Source: a bacterium (GTDB lineage Bacteria > Patescibacteriota > Microgenomatia > UBA1400 > PJMF01). Taken from it: a DNA stretch of 32,004 bases. Shown in pieces: positions 1 through 10,671 of the stretch. Every line of letters begins with the position of its first letter. Positions within the stretch are counted from its first letter, which is position 1. The stretch is taken from contig JAFRKQ010000001.1 in assembly GCA_017431625.1 (NCBI GenBank), positions 1 through 32,004 on the forward strand. Reading direction: 5' to 3'. The notes below the pieces were generated by a model. It was not told the origin of the DNA. It saw nothing but the letters and a program-made list of their open reading frames with translations, and did not search any database. A program made the position numbers and the translations under genes.

Positions 1-141
1 ACCAAGGTTCTTACTCCTACTGGTGGTCCTCTACCGTCTCTTCTGCCACGTTCGCCAGGAGCATGTACGTGGGTTCCTCTGCTACCCTCCCCGCGAGCCT
101 CGACGCCAAGTACAACGGGTTCTCGGTTCGGTGCCTCCTAG
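1..141 (+). repeat. DGR variable repeat (VR)
   Basis: Aligned without gaps to bases 660-800. The two copies differ at 16 positions (12, 18, 51, 52, 61, 66, 72, 73, 87, 88, 97, 99, 100, 102, 105, 106), and in every case the template copy has A. No C, G or T of the template is changed. The last 35 bases are identical and the copies diverge right after CCTCCTAG, which is where the initiation-of-mutagenic-homing region should end. The 5' boundary is cut by the window. Confidence 0.95.
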
Positions 142-149
142 GAAATTGA
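1..149 (+). CDS. DGR target protein, C-terminal end (5' truncated by window)
   Basis: Only the last 48 or so codons are present; the reading frame has its first full codon at base 3 and ends in TGA. The translation has YWWSST, then a variable stretch, then YNGFSVRCLLGN at the end. This is the usual ending of FISUMP/DUF1566-type C-type-lectin-like domains, which are common DGR targets. The last 16 or so invariant residues form the scaffold, and the upstream residues differ from the template repeat only at positions where the template has A. The protein is therefore the diversified ligand-binding product of the retroelement next to it. The N-terminus, any signal peptide and the anchor lie outside the window. 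The family assignment rests on the short C-terminus and the matching template; the DGR-target role is much surer than the exact domain name. Confidence 0.85.
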   Translation, partial: QGSYSYWWSSTVSSATFARSMYVGSSATLPASLDAKYNGFSVRCLLGN

Positions 150-182
150 CCTTTATGTCGTTATCCAATTGCCTTCATTTTT

Positions 183-280
183 CTGTTGCCAGCGTGCCAG
201 CCTGCGGCGCGACCTTAGTCGCCGCCTGCAGGCGCCGCCTGCTGGCAACAGTCGCCAATTTTTCCTGGGAAAAATTGGCG
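183..280 (+). other. Two strong hairpins downstream of the target gene
   Basis: The first structure has 11-bp arms CTGTTGCCAGC (183-193) and GCTGGCAACAG (241-251) enclosing a GC-rich segment with further self-complementarity. The second, starting 2 nt later, is a nearly continuous inverted repeat with 13-nt arms (253-265 and 268-280, arm CGCCAATTTTTCC). Neither is followed by a convincing T-tract on the plus strand. In the Bordetella phage DGR a hairpin/cruciform just after the VR promotes retrohoming. These hairpins are in a comparable place but about 40-140 bp further away, so that role is an inference. A transcription terminator for the target gene is the alternative. Confidence 0.55.
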
Positions 281-607
281 GCGCCCCAAAATTGCCCCTT
301 GCACTTCGCCACTAGCTGTGCTACACTAAGTATTGTCAGCGTCGTCGAGTGGCGGCGTGGCTCTTTCAAATGTTGGTGGTCTCCAGCAGCCTGGAAGAGC
401 AGGTTCAGAGGGTCAAATGCTCCGGCTCATGACCCGAACTCGACTCAAAAGGTCATTCCCTCGATCCACCTCGGATTGGCTCACTCGCAGCCAGCGAGGT
501 TTAATATCAACGTAGGGTGCTGCTGGTGCTTTATGAGAAACAAGATCTTCCTAAGTGATCGTTTTGTGGGGCAATCCGCACGTTGTCTTCGTGCCTGTCC
601 GCTATTG
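281..607. other. Non-coding spacer between DGR target and template repeat
   Basis: I see no supported gene here. Open frames cross it, but none has a recognisable domain or start signal, and they conflict with the VR and TR frames. It probably belongs to the transcribed or structural part of the retroelement. Confidence 0.4.
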
Positions 608-659
608 AATGCGTTCAGGCTGCGGCTCGCCGGGAACGGCAATGGTACGACGTTGAACA

Positions 660-800
660 ACCAAGGTTCTAACTCCAACTGGTGGTCCTCTACCGTCTCT
701 TCTGCCACGAACGCCAGGAACATGAACGTGAATTCCTCTGCTACCAACCCCGCGAACAACAACAACAAGTACAACGGGTTCTCGGTTCGGTGCCTCCTAG
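660..800 (+). repeat. DGR template repeat (TR)
   Basis: The segment is rich in AAC codons and reads in frame as a target-protein end with SNSNWWSST, NPANNNNKYNGFSVRC and no variable residues, the classical look of a template repeat. The 141 bp align to the VR with changes only at A. Target-like coding similarity continues upstream to about base 608 (NAFRLRLAG, GTTLNNQG in the same frame), so the functional TR may start before 660; the matching part of the VR is outside the window. Three nt after the repeat there is a small hairpin (ATGAC-AAGA-GTCAT, 803-816). The TR is upstream of avd and the reverse transcriptase, so the template RNA can be transcribed with them. Confidence 0.95.
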
Positions 801-909
801 CAATGACAAGAGTCATGCTAAATTTTTTGTGTCAAATTATTTCTCCAATCCCTGTTATTCAGTACTGCTGGACCACTAATATTGAAGGACCAGCCTGGAA
901 AGGTCTGAC

Positions 910-1842
910 ATGCCAAAAGAGTCTTCGACCCCCAAAACAAGCGGGTTGCGTCTGCCCGCGGTAAGAAAGCCCAAATCGGAGCAACCGGACGCGGCCCAAG
1001 CGGCACAAACACTGGCAATGATGGAGGTGACGGTACCTTCCATCGAGAATTTGACGCCTACCCCGATGGATCTGCCCACGATTTTTGAGCGGGAAGAAAA
1101 AAATCAAGACTGCGCTCACTTGTATGTCAACAAAAACTTTTTCAATGCCTACAATCTGAGTGCTTATTTCACTCGGACGGTTTTGTGGCCGGGGATTGTC
1201 GCCCGCGAACAATATGTCACCGCTCACCCGATGGGGGTGCGAGTTGGTTTCCCGGTGGCTTCCTTGGCCAAAGCGATTTTGGGTGCGGCCAAAAACAAAA
1301 TTGGCTTTGAGGCGATTAACAATAAGTCCGGTCAATTGATGGAACTGCGCTTTGGGCCCTTCAAGCCCGCTGGCGATGCCTACACCCACTGGCGAGATAA
1401 TTTTTTGCGCGAGACGGAGCGGGGCAAGCAGCTGCTCAAGCCTTCTTATAGCGATCTGCCCGTCTACTTGGAGCTTTTTCGCTATTTCAATTTGGTCTTG
1501 GTGGTCACCAATAAATTCAAGCATCCTTATGATCATATTTTCCAATCACGCTTGATTGACGCGGCGGTCGCCATCAATGAGTCCTTTTTCCTTTACAGCC
1601 AGGACAAAAACAATTACACTCAGACCTTGAAGATTATCGGCGACATCAAAAAAAATCTTAACAAAATGACATTTTATTTTCGCTTGGCTTTTGAGGCTCA
1701 GGCCTACAGCATGGAAGCCAATGGCAATTTGATGAAACAAAAAGCAGTGATAGAAAGGCAATTGACACTATGGGAAAAAAGTATTGCCAGCAAGTGCTCA
1801 ACGACGATTACTTCCGGGGGCAAGAATGGCTCTTCGACTTGA
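910..1842 (+). CDS. avd: DGR accessory protein: Avd-like four-helix domain with a long N-terminal extension
   Basis: The 310-residue product sits between the template repeat and the reverse transcriptase, the usual place of the accessory variability determinant. Residues about 182-291 look like the Avd / 23S-rRNA-intervening-sequence four-helix bundle: long amphipathic helices rich in F, Y, K and N, including VYLELFRYFNLVLVVTNKF. Avd proteins are usually only about 110-130 residues. Here about 180 residues precede the domain: a low-complexity start, then a compact region (about 60-180) with ASLAKAILGAAKNKIGF that I do not recognise. The ATG is preceded by GGAAAGG at suitable spacing. The 3' end overlaps the reverse transcriptase start by 73 nt in another frame. 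Known Avd acts as a pentamer that binds the RT and template RNA; the job of the N-terminal part is unknown. Confidence 0.75.
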   Translation: MPKESSTPKTSGLRLPAVRKPKSEQPDAAQAAQTLAMMEVTVPSIENLTPTPMDLPTIFEREEKNQDCAHLYVNKNFFNAYNLSAYFTRTVLWPGIVAREQYVTAHPMGVRVGFPVASLAKAILGAAKNKIGFEAINNKSGQLMELRFGPFKPAGDAYTHWRDNFLRETERGKQLLKPSYSDLPVYLELFRYFNLVLVVTNKFKHPYDHIFQSRLIDAAVAINESFFLYSQDKNNYTQTLKIIGDIKKNLNKMTFYFRLAFEAQAYSMEANGNLMKQKAVIERQLTLWEKSIASKCSTTITSGGKNGSST

Positions 1843-2867
1843 TCATAAGCTCGTATTATCAAGCCCGCCGGCACAAACGCTCCACGCTCAATCAACTCAA
1901 CTTCGAGCTGGATTTGGAGCGCAATCTAGCGCGGCTTTTTGAGGACATCCGTGATCGACGCTATCAGCTCAATCCTAGTATCGCCTTTATCGTCACCAAT
2001 CCCAAAAGGCGAGAGGTTTTTGCGGCGCATTTTCGCGATCGCATCGTCCACCATATTGTCTACAATCTGATGATTGATTATTGGGAGCGACATTTTATTT
2101 ATGACTCTTATTCATGCCGTCTGCGCAAGGGGACACATTTTGGCATCCAGCGGGTGGCGCAATTTCTGCGCCAGGCCACGGGCAATTATCATCATGAAGC
2201 CTGGGTAATGAAACTCGATGTGGATAGTTATTTTACCAGTATCAATCAAGGGATTATGTGGGAATTGCTTGGCCGGATTTTTACCGATCCACGCCACAAA
2301 TTACCGCCGGAATATCTGGATTTGTTGGCTTATTTGCTGCCGATTATTGTTTTTGCCCGGCCGACGTATGACGTGAGTTTGCGCTCTCGCCGCCAGTTGT
2401 GGCAGGCTTTGCCGGATCACAAGTCACTTTTTTGGGTTGCTCCTGATCGAGGGTTTCCTATTGGCAATCTCACCTCACAACTTTTTTCCAATATTTACTT
2501 GGGCGAGCTGGATATTTTTGTCAAAAACACCCTTAAAGTCCGCTATTATGGCCGTTACGTTGATGATATGGTGCTGGTGGATCGTGACCGCAACTTTTTG
2601 TTGTGGGCGCGCGATCAAATCGAGACTTTTCTCAATCAACGCCTCCTGTTGCGTCTGGCCAAAAGGAAACTTTATCTTCAGCCGGCTCGCTTTGGGGTGA
2701 CTTTTATTGGTGGTCAGATCCGGCCCGAGCGAGTTTATCCTGGTAGGCCATTGCAATCCCACTGGCAAGAGTATGTCTACATCACGAGAGATCTGGACCA
2801 CGGGGTGGAATGGCGCAATAATTGCGAGTCCTACCTGGGCCAGTTACGGATTTTTCGCTACCTCTAG
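1770..2867 (+). CDS. DGR reverse transcriptase
   Basis: The 365-residue product has the full set of group-II/DGR-type RT motifs: REVFAAHFRDRIVHHI (82-96), KLDVDSYFTSI with the first catalytic Asp (148-158), FPIGNLTSQLFSNIYLGELD (229-248), the catalytic YVDD (263-266), KRKLYLQP (298-305) and GVTFIGGQI (309-317). IGNLTSQ matches the DGR hallmark [I/L/V]GxxxSQ in motif 4, which is linked to adenine-directed infidelity. Length is normal for the family and there is no maturase or nuclease domain. The chosen ATG has AAAGG about 11 nt upstream but lies inside the accessory gene; a GTG at 1794 is an alternative that would shorten the overlap. With template RNA and Avd it makes mutagenised cDNA that replaces the VR. 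Confidence 0.95.
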   Translation: MGKKYCQQVLNDDYFRGQEWLFDLIISSYYQARRHKRSTLNQLNFELDLERNLARLFEDIRDRRYQLNPSIAFIVTNPKRREVFAAHFRDRIVHHIVYNLMIDYWERHFIYDSYSCRLRKGTHFGIQRVAQFLRQATGNYHHEAWVMKLDVDSYFTSINQGIMWELLGRIFTDPRHKLPPEYLDLLAYLLPIIVFARPTYDVSLRSRRQLWQALPDHKSLFWVAPDRGFPIGNLTSQLFSNIYLGELDIFVKNTLKVRYYGRYVDDMVLVDRDRNFLLWARDQIETFLNQRLLLRLAKRKLYLQPARFGVTFIGGQIRPERVYPGRPLQSHWQEYVYITRDLDHGVEWRNNCESYLGQLRIFRYL

Positions 2868-3158: not shown

Positions 3159-3270
3159 TTCATTTTGTGAAAAACAATCAGCTGTAAACTCCGCATTTTG
3201 TGAAAAATCACCCTTGTCTAACTCTTCATTTTGTGAAAAATAGCCGATTTGAATCTGTTCATTTTGTGAA
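3159..3270 (+). promoter_or_regulatory. 33-bp-phased operator array 1 (4 sites), upstream of the ATPase gene
   Basis: Copies of the 13-bp element start at 3159, 3192, 3225 and 3258, an exact 33-bp period. The core is TTCATTTTGTGAA, with short dyad symmetry (TTCA, 5 nt, TGAA) and usually followed by AAAAT. The second copy starts with CG instead of TT. The 16-17 nt between copies are variable. The last copy ends 6 nt before the -35 box, so the array is upstream DNA, not part of the mRNA. The same array with the same order of variants occurs at two other loci in this window. Confidence 0.85.
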
Positions 3271-3276
3271 ATTAAG

Positions 3277-4707: not shown

Positions 4708-4819
4708 CGCATTTTGTGAAAAATCACGTTAGTCTAACTCTTCATTTTGTGCTAAATTGCTATTGATAATCTGTTCATTTGGTGAAAATTAAGCATATAC
4801 TAACCTTTCATTTTGTGAG
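4708..4819 (+). promoter_or_regulatory. 33-bp-phased operator array 2 (4 sites), upstream of the first Fic-like gene
   Basis: Elements start at 4708, 4741, 4774 and 4807, again exactly 33 bp apart. The first is the CG-variant and is preceded by the same CAGCTGTAAACTC sequence that precedes the CG-variant in array 1; TCTAACTC then precedes the second copy in both loci. The array therefore shares a duplicated block with array 1, lacks that array's first unit and has one extra promoter-proximal unit. Copies two to four carry single changes (for example GGTGAA for TGTGAA). Confidence 0.85.
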
Positions 4820-4831
4820 ACAGTGTGCTGT

Positions 4832-10547: not shown

Positions 10548-10559
10548 CTAAAACGCTTT

Positions 10560-10671
10560 TTCACCAAATGAACGGATTCCCAATGGCTATTTTTCACAAA
10601 ATGAAGAAATAGACTAGCGCGATTTTTCACAAAATGCGGACTTTGAAGATAACAGTTTTTCACGAAATGAA
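10560..10671 (-). promoter_or_regulatory. 33-bp-phased operator array 3 (4 sites), upstream of the second Fic gene
   Basis: On the minus strand, elements occupy 10659-10671, 10626-10638, 10593-10605 and 10560-10572, exactly 33 bp apart. The second from the distal end is the CG-variant, as in arrays 1 and 2, and the promoter-proximal copy is the GGTGAA variant. The variable parts are also related to array 1 (AAAAATAGCC follows the third copy in both). A more decayed fifth copy may exist further upstream near 10692. Confidence 0.85.

Follow-up and report, generated by a model that had tools for sequence, protein, structure and literature searches.

Among described diversity-generating retroelements (DGRs), the reference system is that of the Bordetella phage BPP-1, whose components are arranged mtd-avd-TR-brt, TR being the template repeat. 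The locus analysed here resembles it in mutagenesis at template adenines, in the DGR motif of the reverse transcriptase (RT), in an accessory protein of the Avd fold, and in an unchanged IMH-like 3′ end and an inverted repeat 3′ of the variable repeat (VR) (PMC3240598). Unlike BPP-1, however, it is cellular, its TR precedes the accessory gene, its target is a FISUMP protein instead of Mtd, and the accessory protein has an extra MutS-I-like domain. From the VR to its inverted repeats the distance is 39 nt, against 4–34 nt in BPP-1-type elements, and a GRNA loop is not evident. The cellular DGRs of CPR/Patescibacteria (clade 2 in Roux et al. 2021, PMC8144416) also sit in small-genome hosts, and small genome size and RT relatives suggest that the present host belongs to Patescibacteria; in contrast to these DGRs, the present locus has a fusion of the MutS-domain-I-like (MSL) domain to Avd and a recognisable FISUMP domain. 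The third point of comparison is MSL itself, which PMC10053308, citing an earlier survey, assigns to PF01624 as a DGR accessory. The same domain family is found beside Avd or fused to it in relatives of our RT (12 alone, 17 fused).

We refer to the whole 32,004-nt stretch as the window. It corresponds to positions 1–32004 of contig C7 in a genome of 1.14 Mb that is 96% complete in 32 contigs, and the contig start truncates the VR. The features of the locus are as follows.

1..144, plus strand: 3′ part of the VR, truncated by the contig start; 16/16 substitutions at template A; 150-nt overlap with contig C28.
Contig C28, L009:1-183, minus strand: full VR, overlapping the window VR over 150 nt.
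3..150, plus strand: 3′ end of the target gene, FISUMP domain, ending ...GFSVRCLLGN; stop codon TGA at 148-150.
183..251, no strand assigned: strong inverted repeat 3′ of the VR (DNA fold of 142-290, −43.5 kcal/mol, z = −6.7).
253..280, no strand assigned: second inverted repeat, perfect 12-13-bp stem.
About 627-803, plus strand: TR; the C28 VR aligns from about 627 with 16 A-only substitutions.
910..1842, plus strand: accessory gene, 310 aa, an MSL-Avd fusion by profile and fold matches.
1066..1401, plus strand: MSL domain, residues 53-164 (MSL profile 90 bits; PDB fold match to E. coli MutS, prob 0.96).
1447..1779, plus strand: Avd domain, residues 180-290, four-helix (Avd profile 71 bits; fold match to BPP-1 Avd, 4dwl).
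1770..2867, plus strand: RT of DGR type, 365 aa, with IGNLTSQ at 2460-2480 and YVDD at 2556-2567.

The RT scored above the cut-off of PF00078 and matched a PHROG RT of a phage family at 5e-77. Its IGNLTSQ and YVDD, which the earlier note had called intact, have the DGR form [ILV]GxxxSQ and YxDD and are invariant or nearly so in five relatives; among its closest named relatives are Saccharibacteria, Gracilibacteria and other Patescibacteria. The order target-TR-accessory-RT was borne out. Together with the Avd-fold accessory, the FISUMP target and TR/VR differences at template adenines in both VR versions (16/16 in C7, 16/16 in C28), these features agree with the earlier identification of the element as a DGR, and its assignment as a cellular DGR, of a kind already known, is well supported at the sequence level.

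We recounted the differences between the VR (1-141) and the TR (660-800) and again found 16, every one at a template adenine (7 A>T, 6 A>G and 3 A>C). With adenine at 36 of the 141 TR bases, the chance of an A-only pattern is ~3e-10, that is, (36/141)^16. AAC and AAT codons carry all 16 changes and contain 24 of the 36 template adenines. The adenine-only pairing thus stands; the extent of the TR does not, since the C28 VR matches farther upstream and takes the TR to about 627-803. An (AAC)4 run lies near the 3′ third of the TR, and over about 31 contiguous bases TR and VR are identical. The TR 3′ end is free of adenine changes (0 over the final 28 nt of TR/VR, both in C7 and in C28), and this adenine-poor segment appears IMH-like from its sequence. 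At the 3′ boundary, position 142 has a C>G difference that comes on top of the 16 and is common to the C28 VR; it looks like an IMH/IMH* boundary. The inverted repeat at 183..251 is a candidate target-recognition hairpin or terminator. The VR core had no match among the viral contigs searched, and an Rfam search of the window returned nothing but a tRNA.

The remainder of the target gene lies on another contig of this genome, C28, at its end. The earlier note had described the target end as FISUMP-like and had proposed an upstream extension for the whole gene and its secretion signal. Read from C28, the target is a 460-aa protein with a hydrophobic, signal-like N-terminus, and it scores above the Pfam and NCBIfam cut-offs for FISUMP (PF09603 1.8e-12; TIGR02145 3e-17). 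The domain runs to the last residue, and the VR is at its C-terminal end, as expected for a DGR target with a ligand-binding domain of the C-type-lectin-like kind. The AlphaFold model of the target was too poor for use (pLDDT 43). The target protein is presumably surface-exposed and may bind a partner or environmental ligands. The signal-like N-terminal segment, of the KTMRLEDMPNG type (residues 33-105 of the C28 target), recurs in many proteins of the genome, at about a dozen other places. A short FISUMP paralogue with the same IMH-like end (TGCCTCCTAGGAAAT) was also observed at C11:49853-50275 (L049:845-1201); the sequence downstream of it resembles that after the window's RT gene.

Contig C28 ends inside the VR, and the VR version that it carries differs from the C7 copy. 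Except for the boundary base that C7 also has, the C28 VR differs from the TR by 16 A substitutions and 0 non-A changes, and its AAC run is longer by 3 nt, an in-frame insertion equal to one extra AAC-type codon. Slippage that lengthens or shortens AAC runs has been described for DGR RT (PMC12875486). Between the C7 and C28 versions there are 15 base differences, and 15/15 fall at template A. We infer the join of the two contigs from the shared VR and a few flanking bases, and within the sampled population the two versions are presumably alleles of a single locus. The contig break at the VR leaves the adjacency of C7 and C28 unproven, and second targets in trans do occur, for the sibling DGR described below (contig C4) and, probably, in the closest relative (genome G001, contig C43; 21 A and 6 non-A changes), so C7 and C28 might represent two different target genes written from the same TR. 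But among all contigs of the genome the upstream half of a target is present only on C28 and the downstream half only on C7, so that each is without exactly the half that the other has; the bases past the TR boundary match between the two (GGAAATTG); and, with two loci, a genome that is 96% complete would have to lack two halves. We therefore regard two separate targets as unlikely; if C28 and C7 were two targets, retrohoming would still be shown twice. 

The reading as alleles of one locus bears on whether the clean pattern stems from recent activity or from strong conservation, both of which the earlier note had considered. G001 (RGIG2560, goat jejunum), the closest relative and of the same genus, has a comparable pair of contig ends, C94 and C26, that meet inside a VR: C26 begins 8 nt before the VR, C94 stops 98 nt into it, and the 8-nt flank is identical. 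The two G001 versions differ at 15 positions, 15/15 at template A. The probable second target in trans of the G001 DGR lies at C43:6506-6674, its differences being counted to the TR. In the TR/VR pairs of seven more related loci, 0-1 non-A change was counted. Non-A template changes, which the earlier note had named as one observation that would refute its reading, number 0 in C28, 0 in C94 and 0 in C26. The simplest reading of these sequences would be that the VRs vary within the sampled populations, and the paired versions in two genomes support recent activity over conservation, the latter being disfavoured.

A DGR that is silent now, with VR versions that are old strain differences under selection and contig breaks caused by repeats, would draw some support from the fact that bins may mix strains and that the exact TR/VR stretch of about 31 bases could disturb assembly. 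The below-average activity of the CPR clade 2 DGRs (Roux et al. 2021, PMC8144416) also counts against recent activity. However, old differences should bring some silent C, G or T changes, and this explanation is weakened because there are none in C7, C28, C26 or C94. If repeats were the cause, the TR should be broken no less often than the VR, whereas contig ends fall inside VRs in C7, C28 and C4 and none of the six TR copies of the genome is broken; uniform breaks would give about 0.03 VR ends (64 contig ends, about 550 nt of VR). In addition, all DGR genes are open. A silent element thus seems quite improbable, and the locus is very probably a working cellular DGR with a recently diversified VR in which C28 and C7 form one target locus. 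Paired contig ends of this kind provide a cheap view of DGR activity in assemblies without reads.

By analogy with known DGRs, the TR (about 627-803) would be transcribed, and the RT, associated with MSL-Avd, would make cDNA of it with random bases opposite template adenines. Anchored by the unchanged, adenine-poor 3′ segment of VR and TR, this cDNA would then take the place of the corresponding 3′ part of the FISUMP gene. Because the changed adenines are all in AAC/AAT codons, the variation would hit a fixed set of residues, in a C-terminal domain of ligand-binding type in the target.

The accessory protein was earlier described as the product of an Avd-type gene. Its Avd part superposes on BPP-1 Avd (4dwl) with a TM of 0.85 by target length and matches the Avd profile at 71 bits, although the window protein scores below the Pfam and NCBIfam Avd thresholds; the predicted four-helix fold and the position beside the RT identify the C-terminal part as Avd. 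The description as Avd alone does not hold, as an N-terminal MSL domain is fused to it. MSL is already known as a DGR accessory; here it is fused to Avd in one protein. Within the RT relatives and the window, the MSL profile matched 29 proteins, 12 stand-alone and 17 fused to Avd, a count in which the two loci of G001 are entered twice under two names. They occur in the window's genus and in Fibrobacter-type and Bacteroidales-type genomes. To our knowledge, MSL has been reported as a DGR accessory but is uncharacterised.

Is the N-terminal domain derived from MutS? Pfam MutS_I matches over the same region were obtained in several members, but every member stays below the curated cut-off, and a search of PDB sequences with the MSL profile retrieved no MutS, as would be expected if the weak matches were convergence. 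On the other hand, three independent lines agree: the repeated MutS_I matches, PDB fold matches at prob 0.69-0.96 with several entries for MutS, and an hhalign comparison of MSL with MutS N-termini (E 3.4e-5, prob 72) in which KNFFNAY is in register with GDFYELF. A published survey likewise puts MSL in PF01624 (PMC10053308). An origin outside MutS therefore has little probability, and we continue with a MutS-domain-I-like assignment. The stacking Phe of MutS is kept in 23/24 MSL domains, whereas the Glu of the F-x-E mismatch motif is present in 0/24. Domain searches of the host genome found no MutS ATPase domain (MutS_V) and no MutL domain, and MutS was absent from 40 of the 46 relatives searched. 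That the accessory is a MutS mismatch-repair protein was rejected on the missing MutS_V in the host genome and the missing Glu.

Because the host is apparently without MutS and MutL, the function of MSL would not be to block host mismatch repair or to recruit it. MSL may hold or tolerate a mismatched duplex and, given the fusion, both parts of the protein would act together on the same nucleic acid. The fusion makes the role of MSL testable.

A second RT, about 50% identical to that of the window and with its own MSL-Avd, is encoded on contig C15, next to an array of templates.

Contig C15, L010:2290-3560, minus strand: sibling DGR, five tandem TR-like copies; VRs at C15:6716-6903 and C4:20181-20355.

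One TR copy pairs with the VR at the C15 end (12 A changes, 0 non-A within the VR) and another with the VR at the C4 end (7 A, 0 non-A over 169 nt), whereas cross-pairs of TR copies and VRs have 11-32 non-A differences; the two paired copies match different target genes. For the other three TR-like copies a VR was not found in the assembly. We considered whether the four extra copies are VRs of one TR, and rejected this on their 9-18 non-A differences from that TR. Likewise, the C4 and C15 ends are not alleles of one target, as 27-32 of 41 differences are non-A and their TR partners differ. We found no description of multi-TR arrays in the DGR literature searched.

The points of interest are thus the MSL-Avd fusion and the multi-template sibling. 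Tentatively, MSL-Avd might be a dedicated DGR mismatch-handling module, in which Phe without Glu holds any cDNA/target mismatch at an adenine site, Avd tethers the RT, and the whole works alone in a host without MutS or MutL, with the second DGR using one RT and one fusion to serve several targets from several templates; this combined proposal is possible but doubtful.

Eight TR-like copies before one RT were also seen in Paludibacter sp. 221 (NZ_QVMH01000013.1, L117:3336-6872), where MSL and Avd are stand-alone. The genome has about 30 VR-like places, including one clean pair (9 A, 0 non-A); the remaining ones have 4-19 non-A differences to the nearest template.

Another repeat family, of TTCATTTTGTGAAA, forms four-copy arrays with 33-nt spacing at 3159-3271, 4708-4820 and 10559-10671 of the window and at 2683-2760 of C28; the window has 13 matches where 0.6 would be expected. 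The arrays flank an AAA_14-DUF4143 gene and are also present upstream of a Fic-type gene; read on the minus strand, they give 11-aa repeats (FSQNEEL).
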